The notes under the pieces: generated by a model
What the model saw: the letters and a program-made list of their open reading frames with translations, nothing else
Database searches by the model: none
What the model was told of the DNA's origin: nothing
NCBI RefSeq assembly: GCF_001672295.1
Contig: NZ_JXMS01000032.1
Span: forward strand, 1-44,208
Reading direction: 5' to 3'
DNA length: 44,208 nt
Source: Halodesulfovibrio spirochaetisodalis
GTDB taxonomy: Bacteria > Desulfobacterota > Desulfovibrionia > Desulfovibrionales > Desulfovibrionaceae
Position numbers and translations under genes: made by a program
Part shown: positions 19,686 to 34,665 of the stretch, one piece after another
How positions within the stretch are numbered: position 1 is the first letter of the stretch
Layout of the letters: every line of letters starts with the position of its first letter

Positions 19686-19742
19686 ATGGCACCTCCTATG
19701 GTTATTGAGATTTTGAGAAGTTGCCCTCTTCACAAGAAAGAA

Positions 19743-19821
19743 GGTCGGGAGCTCTCAACCGTCCATAGTCGGTAGAAGGCTTTTCCCGTTAGGGTATTGT
19801 ATGACCTTCGTACTCCCGACC
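19743..19821 (+). ncRNA. Structured RNA copy 1, C4/P4-CI-like antisense RNA candidate
   Basis: This 79-nt element is closed by a perfect 9-bp stem GGTCGGGAG / CTCCCGACC. Inside are ACCG/CGGT (19758-19761 with 19770-19773, loop TCCATAGT), GAAGG/CCTTC (19775-19779 with 19805-19809) and a small CCC/GGG hairpin. A second copy with the same stems lies 228 bp further on. The exposed loop is complementary to the start of a micro-ORF at 19941-19948. This resembles phage C4 and P4 CI immunity RNAs, which are small, structured and act by antisense pairing. The family assignment is from memory of architecture, not a covariance search. Confidence 0.6.
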
Positions 19822-19948: not shown

Positions 19949-20048
19949 TAAAGGCGCTGAGAACACCTATGGGAAAATTAGTCTTTTTCAGGTATTAGTG
20001 TCAAGGTTCAGCTTGTTTCAAGACATGATTCAGGCGGTAGGCAAAAAA

Positions 20049-20130
20049 GGTCGGGAGCTTCAACACCGCCTAGTAGAACGGCAGAAGGCTTTCCCCTTAC
20101 GGGTGTTGCATAACCTTCGTACTCCCGACC
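20049..20130 (+). ncRNA. Structured RNA copy 2, C4/P4-CI-like antisense RNA candidate
   Basis: This 82-nt element has the same 9-bp closing stem and the same GAAGG/CCTTC (20084-20088 with 20114-20118) and CCC/GGG hairpins as copy 1. Its specificity loop has changed (CCTAGTAGAA instead of TCCATAG). Stems are conserved while the loop varies, as expected for paralogous antisense RNAs with different targets. No matching target for this loop was found within the window. Confidence 0.58.
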
Positions 20131-20196: not shown

Positions 20197-20700
20197 TTAA
20201 TCAACAAACTTTTTAGGGCGGATATGTGCCATCACGCGTTTAAATGCCTCTTCTGATGCCTCAGTTTTCAAAGAAGCAATCGCAGTGCGATCAATAAACT
20301 TAATCGCATCACATGGACACATTTCCACGCAAGCCGGATGCAACCCCTCTGCCCTGCGCTTTTTACACAAATCACATTTTGCAACGGCAACACCTTTACA
20401 GGTTGCAAAAAACGCTGCGTATGGACAGGCAATCAAACAATCCTTTGTCTCGCACCCACGGCATTTCATAGGATCATGCAGGACTGCTCCCTGCGCATCA
20501 CGATGGATTGCCCCCCGCTTACAGACACGCTGGCAAGCGGCTTTCTCACAGTGCTGACAGTATAATGGTACTATTTCTCCATCAATGGTGCGCGACATGG
20601 CAATACGTGGGGTATCATAAAGGAACCTGCACACAGCCTCACACGTTTCGCAGCCGATGCACTTGGAGTAATCGATAAATAATGTTTTTTGTTCTTCCAT
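20197..20700 (-). CDS. HydN-like ferredoxin subunit with four 4Fe-4S sites
   Basis: A 167-residue soluble polyferredoxin with sixteen Cys in four groups: CIGCETCEAVC, CQHCEKAACQRVC, CRGCETKDCLIAC and CDLCKKRRAEGLHPACVEMC. This is the DmsB/HydN-type arrangement. It starts at ATG 20700 with AAAGGTG upstream; GTG 20709 is an alternative. It lies 24 bp downstream of a GltD-like flavoprotein. In E. coli AegA a HydN-like domain and a GltD-like domain are fused, so these two genes look like the split version. Probable role: electron transfer between NAD(P)H via the flavoprotein and an acceptor such as the nearby molybdopterin enzyme. Confidence 0.87.
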   Translation of the reverse strand: MEEQKTLFIDYSKCIGCETCEAVCRFLYDTPRIAMSRTIDGEIVPLYCQHCEKAACQRVCKRGAIHRDAQGAVLHDPMKCRGCETKDCLIACPYAAFFATCKGVAVAKCDLCKKRRAEGLHPACVEMCPCDAIKFIDRTAIASLKTEASEEAFKRVMAHIRPKKFVD

Positions 20701-27235: not shown

Positions 27236-30426
<3,191 letters not shown>

Positions 30427-31485
30427 ATGACGAATGTATCACGACGAGGCTTCCTAAAAATGTGTGGCGCTGTTGCCGCTACTCTCGGCCTTGAGGCAAG
30501 CATGGTTCCACAAATTGCCAAGGCTCTTACCAGTGACACCCGCCCGCCAGTTGTCTGGTTACATTTTGCCGAATGCACCGGCTGCAGCGAAGCTTTCCTC
30601 CGTGCTGAAAATCCGGGTGTTGAAGACATATTATTTGATGTTCTCAATGTTACGTATCACGAAACCCTTCAAGTTGCGTGCGGAGAAAAAGCAGAACACA
30701 ACCTGAACGAGACAATCGCCAATCATGAGGGCGAATTTATCTGCATTGTTGAAGGTGCCATTCCTACTGCAGATAATGGTGTATACGGCACCGTAGGCGG
30801 CCGCACCATGCTTGAGATTGCACAGGCAGTCATCCCTAAGGCAAAACACACTATTTGCTTTGGCACCTGCTCTGCCTTTGGCGGACTCCCTGCAGCAGCA
30901 CCAAACCCCACTGGAGCAAAGGGTGTAAAAGATGCCATCGGTGTGGATACCATCAACATCACAGGCTGCCCACCAAGTCCACTAAACCTTGTTGCTTGTA
31001 TAACTAACTATCTTTTGTACAACCAGATGCCTGCACGCCGTCTGGATGGACGCCCTACATTCTGCCACGGAGAGACAATTCACTCCACATGTACAGTTCC
31101 TCACGGCTGTCTGGAAGGCTATAACTGCAAGGGACCGACAACATATAACAACTGCCACACGCAACTGTATAATGGCGAATCGTGGTGCGTACAGGCAGAA
31201 CACCAGTGCATCGGATGTTCAGAAGCTAACTTCTGGGACAACAATGCTCCATTCTACAACCCAATGTGGGATTCCATGTTCCATACCTTCCGCCGGTATG
31301 CCGAGCCGCACGCCGACATGACTACCGCCCAGTGCGCGCCTTGTCATAAAGCAAACAACATGTTTGAAGTAGAAGAATCTCAAGTAGAAAACCCACGAAA
31401 ATTCCAACAGCAAATCCACCTGATCCATAAAATTGAACTGGACAGTACTAAAAAGTGTGCAAAATGCCACACTGACCTTCCATAA
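30427..31485 (+). CDS. [NiFe] hydrogenase small subunit with C-terminal di-haem c-type extension
   Basis: A 352-residue precursor. A Tat signal with SRRGFLK (residues 5-11) and a hydrophobic core is followed by the proximal-cluster site ECTGCSEA (C50, C53), GTCSAFGGLPAA and TGCPPSP. The distal-cluster His/Cys follow in IHSTC and CLEGYNC, and the medial or distal CIGCSEANFWD after them. The stretch between IHSTC and GYNCKGP is about 20 residues shorter than in Desulfovibrio standards. The protein does not end after the cluster domain: about 50 extra residues carry CAPCH (303-307) and CAKCH (344-348) with an HLIH between, so two c-type haems can be attached. These haems would give an electron exit inside the subunit. 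The large-subunit gene follows 55 bp downstream. Confidence 0.92.
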   Translation: MTNVSRRGFLKMCGAVAATLGLEASMVPQIAKALTSDTRPPVVWLHFAECTGCSEAFLRAENPGVEDILFDVLNVTYHETLQVACGEKAEHNLNETIANHEGEFICIVEGAIPTADNGVYGTVGGRTMLEIAQAVIPKAKHTICFGTCSAFGGLPAAAPNPTGAKGVKDAIGVDTINITGCPPSPLNLVACITNYLLYNQMPARRLDGRPTFCHGETIHSTCTVPHGCLEGYNCKGPTTYNNCHTQLYNGESWCVQAEHQCIGCSEANFWDNNAPFYNPMWDSMFHTFRRYAEPHADMTTAQCAPCHKANNMFEVEESQVENPRKFQQQIHLIHKIELDSTKKCAKCHTDLP

Positions 31486-31540
31486 CATTTGTACATATTA
31501 GATATTTTATAGATAACAAAAGATATTTTAAGGATATACA

Positions 31541-33838
31541 ATGCCTAAAGGCTCTTCATCTCCAATCGCTATTGTCACAAGTGTCTCTAATCTAGACATT
31601 AACGAAGGCCAACAAGCCAGCTTTCAAGTCAAACTGGCAGAGCGACCGGCAAGCGATGTTTCAATAAGCGTAAATAGAACAAGCGGAGACGCTGACCTCT
31701 CAGTGGTTTCCGGTGCAACCTTTACAATCAGCCGCCGCAACTACAATACATGGCACACAGTCACTATAGCTGCAGCTGAAGACTCTGATACTGAAAGCAA
31801 TAGCGCTACATTCACCTGTTCCGGTTCAGGACTGACTGCTGCACAAGTCACCGCCACAGAAGTTGATAATGATTCTGCTTCACCTACGTTCAGTATTGTA
31901 GCAGACACCACCGCGGTATCCGTACCAGAGGGCGGTAATGCCACACTGCAGGTAAAACTTTCTGCAGACCCAATGAAAACGACTCTCGTTACCACAGGAT
32001 ACAGCAGTGGCGATGCCGATATCAGCGTTACGGGGGGATCAACATATTACTTTGACTCATCTAACTGGGATCAATATATGCCGATCACTCTTTCGGCAGC
32101 AGCTGATTCCGACGCTGAAAACGGACAAGCTATTTTTGCTATTACTGCTGAAGGGGCACCTTCTGTAAATATTACTGCTACAGAAGCAGACAGCAGCACC
32201 GGAACCACACAGCGCATTGTCATTGATCCTGTTAGCCGTATTGAAGGACATTTGCGAATTGAAGTTGAAACTTCTGGCGGCAAAGTTACCAAAGCATGGT
32301 CTTCTGCAACCATGTTCCGTGGTGTTGAGCCTATCCTTCAAGGACGTGCTCCTCTTGATGCACCACATATTACGCAGCGCCTATGCGGGGTCTGCACATA
32401 CATCCACGGCCTCTGCTCTACTCGTGCCATTGAGGACACTATCAACGTAACCATTACAGACAACGCCCGTATTGTCCGTAACCTTCTGCTCGGTGCCCAG
32501 TTTATGCATGACCATATTGTGCACTTCTATCACCTGAACGGGCTGGACTGGGCAGACATTGTCAGTGCCCTGTCTGCTGATCCTGCTGTTACGCAGTCTC
32601 TTGCATTTAGCACTTCTCCGAATGCTGACCCGATTGATTTTGCAGCGGTTAAAGCTCGCCTTCAGGGTCTCGTTGATACAGGCAACCTTGGACCATTTGC
32701 GAATGCATATTGGGGACACACTGACTACAAACTCAGTCCTGAAGAGAACCTCCTCATCGTTGCTCATTACCTTGAAGCACTCAAAAAGCAATTGGCTGCA
32801 GCACGCATGATGGCAATCCTCGGGGGTAAAAACCCGCATCCACAGTCTGTTGTTGTTGGCGGCGTTACATGCGGTAGTGAACTTTCTGCAGAACGCCTGA
32901 CGCAATTCCGCGCTTACATGGATGAAGTTCGAAAGTTCGTTGAAACAGTATATCTGCCTGATCTTAAGCTGGTTGCTTCCCGCTATCCTGAATGGACTAA
33001 GGTAGGTGGGTTCAGCAACTTTATGTCGTATGGGGAATTCCCTCAGGGAGCTAATGAACCAGCAGATTTTCTGATGCCTCGCGGAGCTATTTTCAATGGT
33101 GACTTCCTTAATGTTCAACCTGTAAATCAGACAGCAATCACTGAGCATGTTGCCCGCTCATGGTACAGCGGAAGCACAGACCGCCATCCTGCCTCCGGTG
33201 AAACAGTGCCTGACTTTACCGGACTGGACACAGAAGACAGATACACTTGGTCAAAAGCTCCTCGCTACAGCGGCGATGCAATGGAGGTAGGCCCTCTTGC
33301 TCGTGTTCTAGTGGGCTATGGACAAGGGAAACCTGAGTTTGTTTCTGCAGTGCAAAGCTTCCTGACCGACACTGGCCTGCAAGAAACTGATCTGCTCTCC
33401 ACACTTGGACGTACTGCAGCACGAGCCATTGAGACCAGAATCATCAGTAACGCTATGCAGAACTGGTTAACAGAACTGGAAACAAACCTTTCTACAGGCA
33501 ACCTCCAGATCTACGAAAATCACACCATGACCTCTGGTAACGGTTTCGCGCTGAACGAAGCTCCACGAGGAGCCTTAGGACACTGGATGACCATTCAGGA
33601 CAATACCATCAATGGGTACCAGATGGTTGTACCTTCTACATGGAACTTCAGCCCCCGCTGCGCTGACAACATTCCGGGCCCGCTGGAAAAATCCCTTGTC
33701 GGTGTACCGATTGCCGATCCTGAAAATCCGGTTGAACTGTTACGTGTGATTCACTCCTTCGACCCTTGCATTGCATGTGGCGTTCATGTCATCGACAAAG
33801 ACAATGGCAAAACTCACAAAGTAGACTTAATGCGATAA
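31541..33838 (+). CDS. [NiFe] hydrogenase large subunit with two N-terminal Calx-beta-like domains
   Basis: A 765-residue protein. Residues about 9-112 and 114-218 are two related beta-sandwich repeats, each with I/VPEGG-type start, SGDADxSV, an NWxx...VTxxAAxDSDxxN and a closing TATExD, the pattern of Calx-beta-like repeats. From residue 224 (QRIVIDPVSRIEGH) a complete hydrogenase catalytic chain follows, with RLCGVCTYIH and C-terminal DPCIACGVH supplying the four Ni-Fe Cys. Sixteen residues follow the His, the usual peptide removed by a maturation protease. Both Ni-site codons are TGC/TGT, so it is not [NiFeSe]. It has no own signal and should be exported with the Tat small subunit. AAGGATATAC precedes the ATG. 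I know of no described hydrogenase with this N-terminal fusion. Confidence 0.93.
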   Translation: MPKGSSSPIAIVTSVSNLDINEGQQASFQVKLAERPASDVSISVNRTSGDADLSVVSGATFTISRRNYNTWHTVTIAAAEDSDTESNSATFTCSGSGLTAAQVTATEVDNDSASPTFSIVADTTAVSVPEGGNATLQVKLSADPMKTTLVTTGYSSGDADISVTGGSTYYFDSSNWDQYMPITLSAAADSDAENGQAIFAITAEGAPSVNITATEADSSTGTTQRIVIDPVSRIEGHLRIEVETSGGKVTKAWSSATMFRGVEPILQGRAPLDAPHITQRLCGVCTYIHGLCSTRAIEDTINVTITDNARIVRNLLLGAQFMHDHIVHFYHLNGLDWADIVSALSADPAVTQSLAFSTSPNADPIDFAAVKARLQGLVDTGNLGPFANAYWGHTDYKLSPEENLLIVAHYLEALKKQLAAARMMAILGGKNPHPQSVVVGGVTCGSELSAERLTQFRAYMDEVRKFVETVYLPDLKLVASRYPEWTKVGGFSNFMSYGEFPQGANEPADFLMPRGAIFNGDFLNVQPVNQTAITEHVARSWYSGSTDRHPASGETVPDFTGLDTEDRYTWSKAPRYSGDAMEVGPLARVLVGYGQGKPEFVSAVQSFLTDTGLQETDLLSTLGRTAARAIETRIISNAMQNWLTELETNLSTGNLQIYENHTMTSGNGFALNEAPRGALGHWMTIQDNTINGYQMVVPSTWNFSPRCADNIPGPLEKSLVGVPIADPENPVELLRVIHSFDPCIACGVHVIDKDNGKTHKVDLMR

Positions 33839-33842
33839 TAAT

Positions 33843-33883
33843 AAAAAAGTCCGTGCTGATTATAACCAGCACGGACTTTTTTT
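33843..33883. terminator. Bidirectional terminator between hydrogenase genes and maturation protease
   Basis: The stem AAAAAAGTCCGTGCTG / CAGCACGGACTTTTTT has an 8-nt loop. It serves the convergent hydrogenase and protease transcripts. Confidence 0.95.
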
Positions 33884-33900
33884 ATACTACAATAACTAAC

Positions 33901-34392
33901 TTATACTTTTTCTGAAAAAGTTCCCCCGAACCCAGCAATCTCCTGAAGAGCTGCTTCACACATGTCACCTAATCGACCAGCAGCCACAGAAGATATTTCA
34001 GTATTCATAGTTTGGTAATCCTCAGGCTCCATTCCGATTACAACAGTATCAGGACGAGTTCCGATCAATTCACAAAAAATCAGTGTATCAACTAAATCTG
34101 TTTGATGCATAGAATTGTTAAAGCCCAGACTCTTACGTAAATCCTCACCCACTAAACGATAGATTGAACCTGCGGATTCATCACCTAATACAGCATCAAG
34201 TACAATAAGCTTGTCGTATTGAATAATATGGTCAATGAGCTTCAGCCCCAACGTACCACCATCCAGTACTGTCACATTCTCTGAAAATTCATATGATGCC
34301 AACAAGTGCTCTGCTGCGCGAACTCCCAGACCCTCGTCTGTATATAGTGTGTTCCCGACCCCGAGAACAAGAATCTTTGCCGGATTCGTCAT
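33901..34392 (-). CDS. Hydrogenase maturation endopeptidase (HyaD/HybD type)
   Basis: A 163-residue M52-family protease: ILVLGVGNTLYTDEGLGVRA at the N-terminus holds the nickel-binding Asp/Glu (DEG), with VLDGGTLGLKLI and LDAVLGDESAG following. It removes the C-terminal peptide after DPCxxCxxH in the large subunit once nickel is inserted. It lies convergent to and just beyond the hydrogenase genes, so it is probably dedicated to this enzyme. ATG 34392 is chosen since GGGGAAGG precedes it; ATG 34404 and TTG 34419 are alternatives. Other hyp genes are absent from the window. Confidence 0.9.
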   Translation of the reverse strand: MTNPAKILVLGVGNTLYTDEGLGVRAAEHLLASYEFSENVTVLDGGTLGLKLIDHIIQYDKLIVLDAVLGDESAGSIYRLVGEDLRKSLGFNNSMHQTDLVDTLIFCELIGTRPDTVVIGMEPEDYQTMNTEISSVAAGRLGDMCEAALQEIAGFGGTFSEKV

Positions 34393-34617
34393 AACCTTCC
34401 CCATCGTTATCTCTAGCAATAAGATATTTATTCGTTACCATACGTACTGTGTGACATAGCATTTAGAAAAAAAGGATGAAATAAATAGCGCTGCGTAATC
34501 TCAATTCTCACAAGATCATATTGAAATCGACTGTCAAAATCAACGCAAAGCTATGTAAAACGACTATCGTTAAAGGTTAGCACACTGCCTCTACTGCAAT
34601 AGATACCAATAAAAAAA

Positions 34618-34665
34618 GCCGCTATGAACACTTGTTTATAAATATAAACAAGTGTTCATAGCGGC
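34618..34665 (-). terminator. Terminator with a perfect 21-bp stem
   Basis: 34618-34638 pairs without mismatch to 34645-34665 (6-nt loop), with seven T next on the minus strand. It terminates the uvrB-channel unit. The length is unusual for an intrinsic terminator. Confidence 0.9.

Follow-up and report, generated by a model that had tools for sequence, protein, structure and literature searches.

The window, the 44,208-nucleotide stretch of Halodesulfovibrio spirochaetisodalis DNA that was analysed (contig NZ_JXMS01000032.1), contains the genes for the small and large subunits of a [NiFe] hydrogenase and, convergent with them, a gene for a maturation protease, hupD. The three genes lie between two others that we take from their sequences to be ligA and trkA (Table 1). 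The large-subunit gene is an uninterrupted frame with an AAGGA-type site immediately 5' of its ATG. Residues 260 to 749 of the protein match Pfam NiFeSe_Hases (E 8e-201), residues 216 to 762 align with D. vulgaris 1h2a (phmmer, E 1.6e-184), and in the phmmer alignment several PDB chains of processed enzymes stop at the residue matching position 749. With RLCGVC, DPCIAC and a cleavage site at H749 the protein has the marks of a group 1 [NiFe] large subunit, and the catalytic subunit is intact, as a preliminary description of this DNA had stated.

Table 1. Features of the hydrogenase locus, in window positions.
Feature	Position	Strand	Basis or remark
Approximate insert between ligA and trkA (small subunit, large subunit, hupD)	29757..34630		Congener alignment
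Small subunit, 352 aa (Tat signal, ligands of three Fe-S clusters, two-haem tail)	30427..31485	+	Profiles
Shortened distal-cluster loop, C222 to C228, 5 residues between	31090..31110	+	Alignment
Cys254 at the medial-cluster position (Pro in ordinary enzymes)	31186..31188	+	Alignment
C-terminal tail with two CxxCH (C303-H307, C344-H348), H331, H334	31276..31482	+	Alignment
Large subunit	31541..33838	+	Single uninterrupted ATG frame, 765 aa
Beta-sandwich repeat 1, residues ~6-113	31556..31879	+	Repeat alignment, AlphaFold2
Beta-sandwich repeat 2, residues ~114-218	31880..32194	+	Repeat alignment, AlphaFold2
Catalytic domain, residues 222-749	32204..33787	+	Carries RLCGVC and DPCIAC
Predicted C-terminal cleavage peptide, 16 residues after H749	33788..33835	+	Alignment with PDB chains of processed enzymes
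Strong terminator-like inverted repeat between the convergent large-subunit and hupD genes	33843..33882		18-pair stem
Hydrogenase maturation protease, HupD/HyaD family	33901..34419	-	TIGR00140, E 8e-51

The repeats ahead of the catalytic domain

The two repeats of about 108 residues align with each other without gaps, with a score of 187 compared with 35 ± 6 for shuffled sequences, and none of 500 shuffles reaches 187. AlphaFold2, given a 7-row alignment, models the region as two beta-sandwiches with a mean pLDDT of 91.9. When this model is compared with the PDB by Foldseek, 470 matches reach E ≤ 0.001; the 50 that are listed include ciliary proteins, complement C3, antibodies, titin and RbmA. 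A tandem Ig-like sandwich fold is, on this modelling, a confident prediction. The full-length model of the large subunit is poor in its catalytic half (mean pLDDT 68.7), too poor for the putative arm formed by the repeats to be placed relative to the enzyme.

The preliminary description had recognized two related beta-sandwich repeats and called them Calx-beta-like. The relationship between the repeats and their predicted fold both stand, but the family name does not: the Pfam family (PF03160) has no match in any of the nine fused members at values up to E = 1, no Calx-beta chain is named among the 50 Foldseek matches listed, and the best Pfam matches on the window repeats are I-set and Ig_3, both below threshold. 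We reject membership of the family on these profile grounds and retain Calx-beta as a resemblance. We likewise reject the idea that the repeat was taken from one of the strain's own surface proteins, for a search of the strain's genome up to E 10 found no second copy, and in the 30 genomes of the G687 family (E ≤ 1e-6) the repeat occurs in four fusion genomes and, as one weak match, in a repeat-rich G716 protein that by eye resembles a surface protein.

Repeat 1 has acidic residues at E22, D50, D52, D81, D83, E107 and D109, and these seven positions are acidic in 13 to 16 of the 16 repeats from the seven members with a haem tail (see below). From the strand order in the AlphaFold2 model they lie in loops expected to share an end of the sandwich. 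Both one-repeat forms have lost D50 and E107, and one of them has lost D52 as well. The conserved acidic loop positions suggest that the repeats may bind Ca2+; in tandem sandwich repeats of adhesins, according to PMC7493085, Ca2+ in the linkers makes the array stiffer.

A small subunit with a predicted haem tail

The small subunit is recognized by TIGR00391 hydA (E 3.5e-84), by Oxidored_q6 and by a Tat-signal profile above its cut-off. Its twin-arginine motif is RRGFLK, and a twin-arginine motif is present in all nine small subunits of the fused members; on the large subunit no signal peptide is apparent by eye, the best hydropathy of the first 60 residues being 0.44. The protein has the Tat signal and the ligands of three Fe-S clusters that characterize a group 1 small subunit, the roles of the individual ligands being presumed from known enzymes.

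The surroundings of two of these clusters are altered. Among 61 small subunits, the distal-cluster loop has 5 residues in all 10 clade members scored (the nine fused members and the unfused L051) and 24 residues in each of the 51 others. Three further relatives outside these 61, L146, L147 and L149, have intermediate loops of 8 to 10 residues together with the medial Pro. L045, L082, L144, L148 and L153 yielded no small subunit. At the medial position the same 61 sequences have Cys in 7/7 members with two or more repeats, Asp in L104, L105 and L051, and Pro in 51/51 others. Because of the extra Cys ligand, the medial cluster of the window small subunit is probably [4Fe-4S]; at the medial site of E. 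coli Hyd-1 a Pro-to-Cys change gave a 4Fe4S cluster (PMC4747160, excerpted text).

The C-terminal tail is the second unusual part of the protein. Its two CxxCH motifs, H331 and H334 are conserved in the four small subunits aligned, and it weakly resembles MtrC/MtrF and cytochrome c7 domains, with profile matches (E 4e-4 and 9e-4) that do not reach the cut-offs. A hydrophobic C-terminal helix is absent: the best 19-residue hydropathy after residue 240 is -0.1, compared with 2.0 in E. coli HyaA. By its sequence the tail is a predicted two-haem c domain that replaces the membrane helix, and it is present in all seven members with at least two repeats and in neither of the two one-repeat members. 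At the level of sequence the catalytic motifs of the locus are intact, and its small subunit, which alone carries a Tat signal, has haem motifs and changed cluster surroundings. The tail, the missing helix and the altered cluster ligands had been overlooked in the preliminary description.

Possible electron partners

With the two E. coli proteins as tblastn queries, no relative of HyaC or HybB was found at E ≤ 1e-3 in the fetched DNA of the nine fusion loci, that of the window among them, or of L134, a search that would miss distant membrane partners. The combination of a C-terminal membrane helix with a membrane cytochrome partner, which is common to many group 1 enzymes and not to all, was accordingly not seen here. 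The sole HybA match in the window is short (20278-20559) and lies 10 kb from the operon. At the G277 locus, however, the operon strand encodes a 4Fe-4S protein resembling HybA and a second protein, small and hydrophobic, downstream of the fusion genes (L103:5679-7254, minus strand) and beyond an opposing regulator-like gene. This pair is a possible membrane electron module; it counts against a purely soluble route and slightly lowers our confidence in the explanation favoured below.

Several other genes and elements were noted in passing. In G811 a di-haem cytochrome c peroxidase gene (L107:12571-13626, minus strand; CCP_MauG, E 6e-35) adjoins the fusion operon and its protease. The genome of the window strain encodes two more hydrogenases (C34:47422-54811), one of them ordinary (52% identity) and the other a match with an in-frame TGA, as in selenocysteine enzymes. 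The window also has two Rfam sRNA-Xcc1 matches above the gathering score, at 19735-19821 and 20041-20130 on the minus strand.

Distribution of the fusion

The first description holds in that beta-sandwich repeats are truly fused to a [NiFe] large subunit: both lie in one open frame, and the search across genomes that had been proposed found the same type of repeat ahead of the same catalytic part in eight other genomes, making nine distinct genomes in all. Two of the eight have one repeat (G554, G672), four have two, as the window does (G687, G688, G707, G811), and two have three (G689, G277). A pattern scan of genome contigs, built on six short peptides and so not exhaustive, gave 10 loci. 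Three carry the fusion, those of Desulfosarcina alkanivorans PL12, a Desulfatitalea MAG and a Desulfosarcinaceae MAG, and their identity over the protein is 62-64%.

Within sets of genomes that overlap, and with fusion called by reading where the matches begin, the architecture was counted in 1/10 genomes of the genus, in at least 2 of 288 of the family (from the best 150 or so matches), in 2/395 of a sample of the phylum and in 2/26 of family f91; the corresponding counts around G687 are 4/30 for its family, 5/389 for its order and 5/389 for its class. The cut-offs were strict, and some matches starting somewhat before residue 222, several of them in the window's own genus, were left out, so weaker fusions may be missed. 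Beyond the contig scan and a plasmid search, these figures cover samples of one phylum. Carriage on plasmids was rejected, as 144 plasmid records matched and none covered 80% of the query; among the 15 listed, all matches start at residue 199 or later.

In our searches of the PMC literature, a body that does not extend to subscription journals or preprints, we found no description of a hydrogenase large subunit fused to a Calx-beta or Ig-like domain, which agrees with what had been supposed at the outset, and none of a diheme small subunit in Desulfosarcina or of a small subunit fused to a c-type cytochrome domain. The fusion is a genuine, conserved and rare variant of a known enzyme class, present in sulfate reducers and related bacteria, and the combination of arm and haem tail is more remarkable than the repeats by themselves.

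Phylogeny of the two subunits

Phylogeny of the catalytic part, another of the checks proposed, places the fused members in a distinct clade. In the large-subunit tree they group with L045 and L051 at 97.7/100 (supports are SH-aLRT/UFBoot), and in the small-subunit tree with L051 at 98.5/100, the small subunit of L045 being absent from the fetched DNA. Enlarged by L144, L146, L147 and L149 the clade becomes a 15-member split in the large-subunit tree (99.9/100), and enlarged by L146, L147 and L149 it has 96.8/98 in the small-subunit tree. The final trees were made after removing 12 near-duplicate sequences from each subunit set; strict motif filters had dropped 13/53 loci from the large-subunit set and 27/53 from the small-subunit set of the first trees. 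The fused set is monophyletic in the small-subunit tree (63.2/95) but not in the large-subunit tree, where L045 and L051, which lack the repeats and have intact catalytic motifs, fall inside it (71.8/89). Its monophyly in the first large-subunit tree was lost once these two were added.

Because L146, L147 and L149 have loops of 8 to 10 residues together with the medial Pro, the shortening of the distal loop and the medial change look stepwise in the clade. In a tree of the repeats, the last repeats of six of the seven haem-tail members cluster, as a fixed architecture would predict, and the last repeat of L103 stays apart. Among six members the repeats are 47-59% identical and the catalytic parts 67-81%; the repeats diverge faster, and this is as compatible with a passive arm as with a docking site.

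One relative, L147 (G1014), has a different N-terminal extension of about 100 residues ahead of its catalytic part. Pfam names no family for it, and by eye we take it to resemble a bacterial Ig-like module, perhaps an independent Ig-like fusion. Extension of the large subunit at its N-terminus may thus have more than one origin.

Probable acquisition of the gene pair, and the maturation protease

The three genes occupy an insert of about 4.9 kb. In alignments with five congeners, homology in the ligA-trkA spacer ends at about 29749-29756 and returns between 34628 and 34701; the spacer measures 381-397 bases in these five and about 890 bases in G002 and G009. Neither subunit gene nor hupD has a match in any of the seven congener regions fetched, in all of which ligA and trkA adjoin. 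At the right edge of the insert, a 20-pair inverted repeat (34618-34665) that is partly common to some congeners is probably a terminator.

In both trees the window sequence groups with L032, L033, L034, L106 and L107 (99.9/100 for both subunits), and not with G277 of its own family. Because the gene pair groups in this way with distant members, it was probably acquired horizontally. The GC content is 43-50% in the insert genes and 44-47% in the two flanking genes, and with ranges so similar the base composition says little about the gain.

The protease may have a different history. The window hupD is 61-75% identical to the proteases beside the ordinary hydrogenases of the genus (71% to the other copy in its own genome) and 40% identical to the protease that lies convergent with the fusion operon in G811; since it is closer to the ordinary proteases of the genus than to that of G811, it is perhaps a local recruit. 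That the protease is specific to the fusion operon is not supported by these values. The preliminary description had argued from the neighbouring protease gene that the enzyme is probably functional. The gene does adjoin, in convergent orientation and with a terminator-like repeat in between, but the argument is weakened by the identity values and by the detection of a protease at only one of the eight other fusion loci (tblastn, fetched DNA).

Proposed function

The explanation we favour, with somewhat better than even confidence, is a soluble, Tat-exported group-1-type [NiFe] hydrogenase that is wired to c-type cytochromes and uses its repeats as a rigid arm for docking or spacing. Within this explanation we hold the electron route more firmly than the role of the arm; export, haem attachment, the cluster type and Ca2+ binding all enter it as predictions. 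Specifically, the two subunits would fold together in the cytoplasm, with the repeats already folded before export, and would then be exported as a pair on the Tat signal of the small subunit. Export of an untagged hydrogenase subunit by hitchhiking on its partner is described in the excerpted text of PMC10924467. Electrons from H2 would pass through the proximal, medial and distal clusters to the two tail haems, and from there to the pool of c-type cytochromes rather than to a membrane quinone partner. The repeats would form a rigid arm, possibly stiffened by Ca2+, whose task would be to orient the enzyme or to keep it attached to a partner.

Alternatively, the repeats could serve the enzyme internally, stabilising the heterodimer or an oligomer and offsetting the shortened loop of the small subunit without binding any partner. 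In the clade a shorter loop does go together with an N-terminally extended large subunit: L146, L147 and L149 have loops of 8 to 10 residues and extensions of varied length, and the nine fused members and L051 have loops of 5 residues. However, L051 manages its 5-residue loop with no repeat and an extension of only about 40 residues, and the number of repeats ranges from one to three; we regard such compensation as rather unlikely.

A third explanation, to which we give a little less weight again, places the enzyme outside the cell, where adhesin-type repeats would hold it at the outer membrane, a biofilm matrix, a mineral or a partner cell and the haems would exchange electrons there. In a Gram-negative cell, Tat export by itself takes a protein no further than the periplasm, and beyond the Tat signal of the small subunit no further signal is apparent by eye, which speaks against this location. 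What speaks for it is the one weak match of the repeat outside the fusions, in the 30 genomes searched, to the surface-like, repeat-rich protein of G716 (judged by eye), along with the stiffening of adhesin repeats by Ca2+ in their linkers (PMC7493085) and the description, in the excerpted text of PMC6181927, of a Tat-exported [NiFe] hydrogenase that works outside the cell in M. maripaludis. Tethering to the outer membrane or to a partner cell by the repeats is conceivable. The most elaborate version, a surface hydrogenase wired by its own parts, with the repeats anchored to matrix, mineral or partner cell and the haem tail trading electrons with extracellular cytochromes, is more doubtful than a surface location as such; if true, it would put tether and plug for direct electron exchange into one enzyme. 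Finally, an assembly or frame artefact in the window strain, which the preliminary description had named as a way in which it could be wrong, has practically no probability, as the same fusion is present in eight other assemblies, 55-65% identical over the protein, one of which is a record titled as a complete genome (NZ_AP021874.1).

Returning to the soluble, cytochrome-wired enzyme, the locus offers a natural [NiFe] hydrogenase in which both subunits are extended, with an arm on the catalytic side and two predicted haem sites where the electrons leave. Should the predicted wiring prove right, nature would here supply a plan for a hydrogenase that can be both mounted and wired up, which would be useful in bioelectrochemistry. 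Within the small clade, loop shortening, the medial-position change and the added domains can be followed one step at a time. The locus is also a further example of a hydrogenase pair that was probably gained horizontally, here between distant members of a single phylum.

Comparison with known systems

The window pair is most readily compared with the periplasmic hydrogenases of Desulfovibrio (1h2a, 1frv), which we take to be the enzymes named HynAB and labelled group 1b in HydDB. It shares with them the catalytic sequence, the active-site motifs, the Tat-signalled small subunit and the three clusters, and HynAB enzymes are expected to reduce c-type cytochromes. Unlike them, it has repeats on the large subunit, a haem tail, a distal loop of 5 rather than 24 residues and Cys in place of Pro. 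In our trees it falls in a clade separate from HynAB-type enzymes. The repeats themselves resemble Calx-beta domains in their length of about 100 residues, their predicted Ig-like beta-sandwich fold, an EG motif, acidic loops and an E-x-D end.

Hyd-1 and Hyd-2 of E. coli (HyaAB, HybOC) are likewise group-1-type heterodimers exported by Tat. They have a C-terminal membrane helix (PMC10924467, excerpted text), whereas none was found in the window small subunit, and they have membrane partner genes, whereas none was found beside the window pair. The MIC hydrogenase of Methanococcus maripaludis is also a Tat-exported [NiFe] enzyme encoded with a protease on an island, according to the excerpted text of PMC6181927. 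It is archaeal and falls outside the known groups in its authors' trees, whereas the window pair is group-1-type; the same excerpts mention neither repeats nor a haem tail, and the window pair has both. Lastly, the window repeats resemble the Ca2+-stiffened tandem sandwiches of PMC7493085 in the predicted position of their acidic loops at one end of the sandwich.
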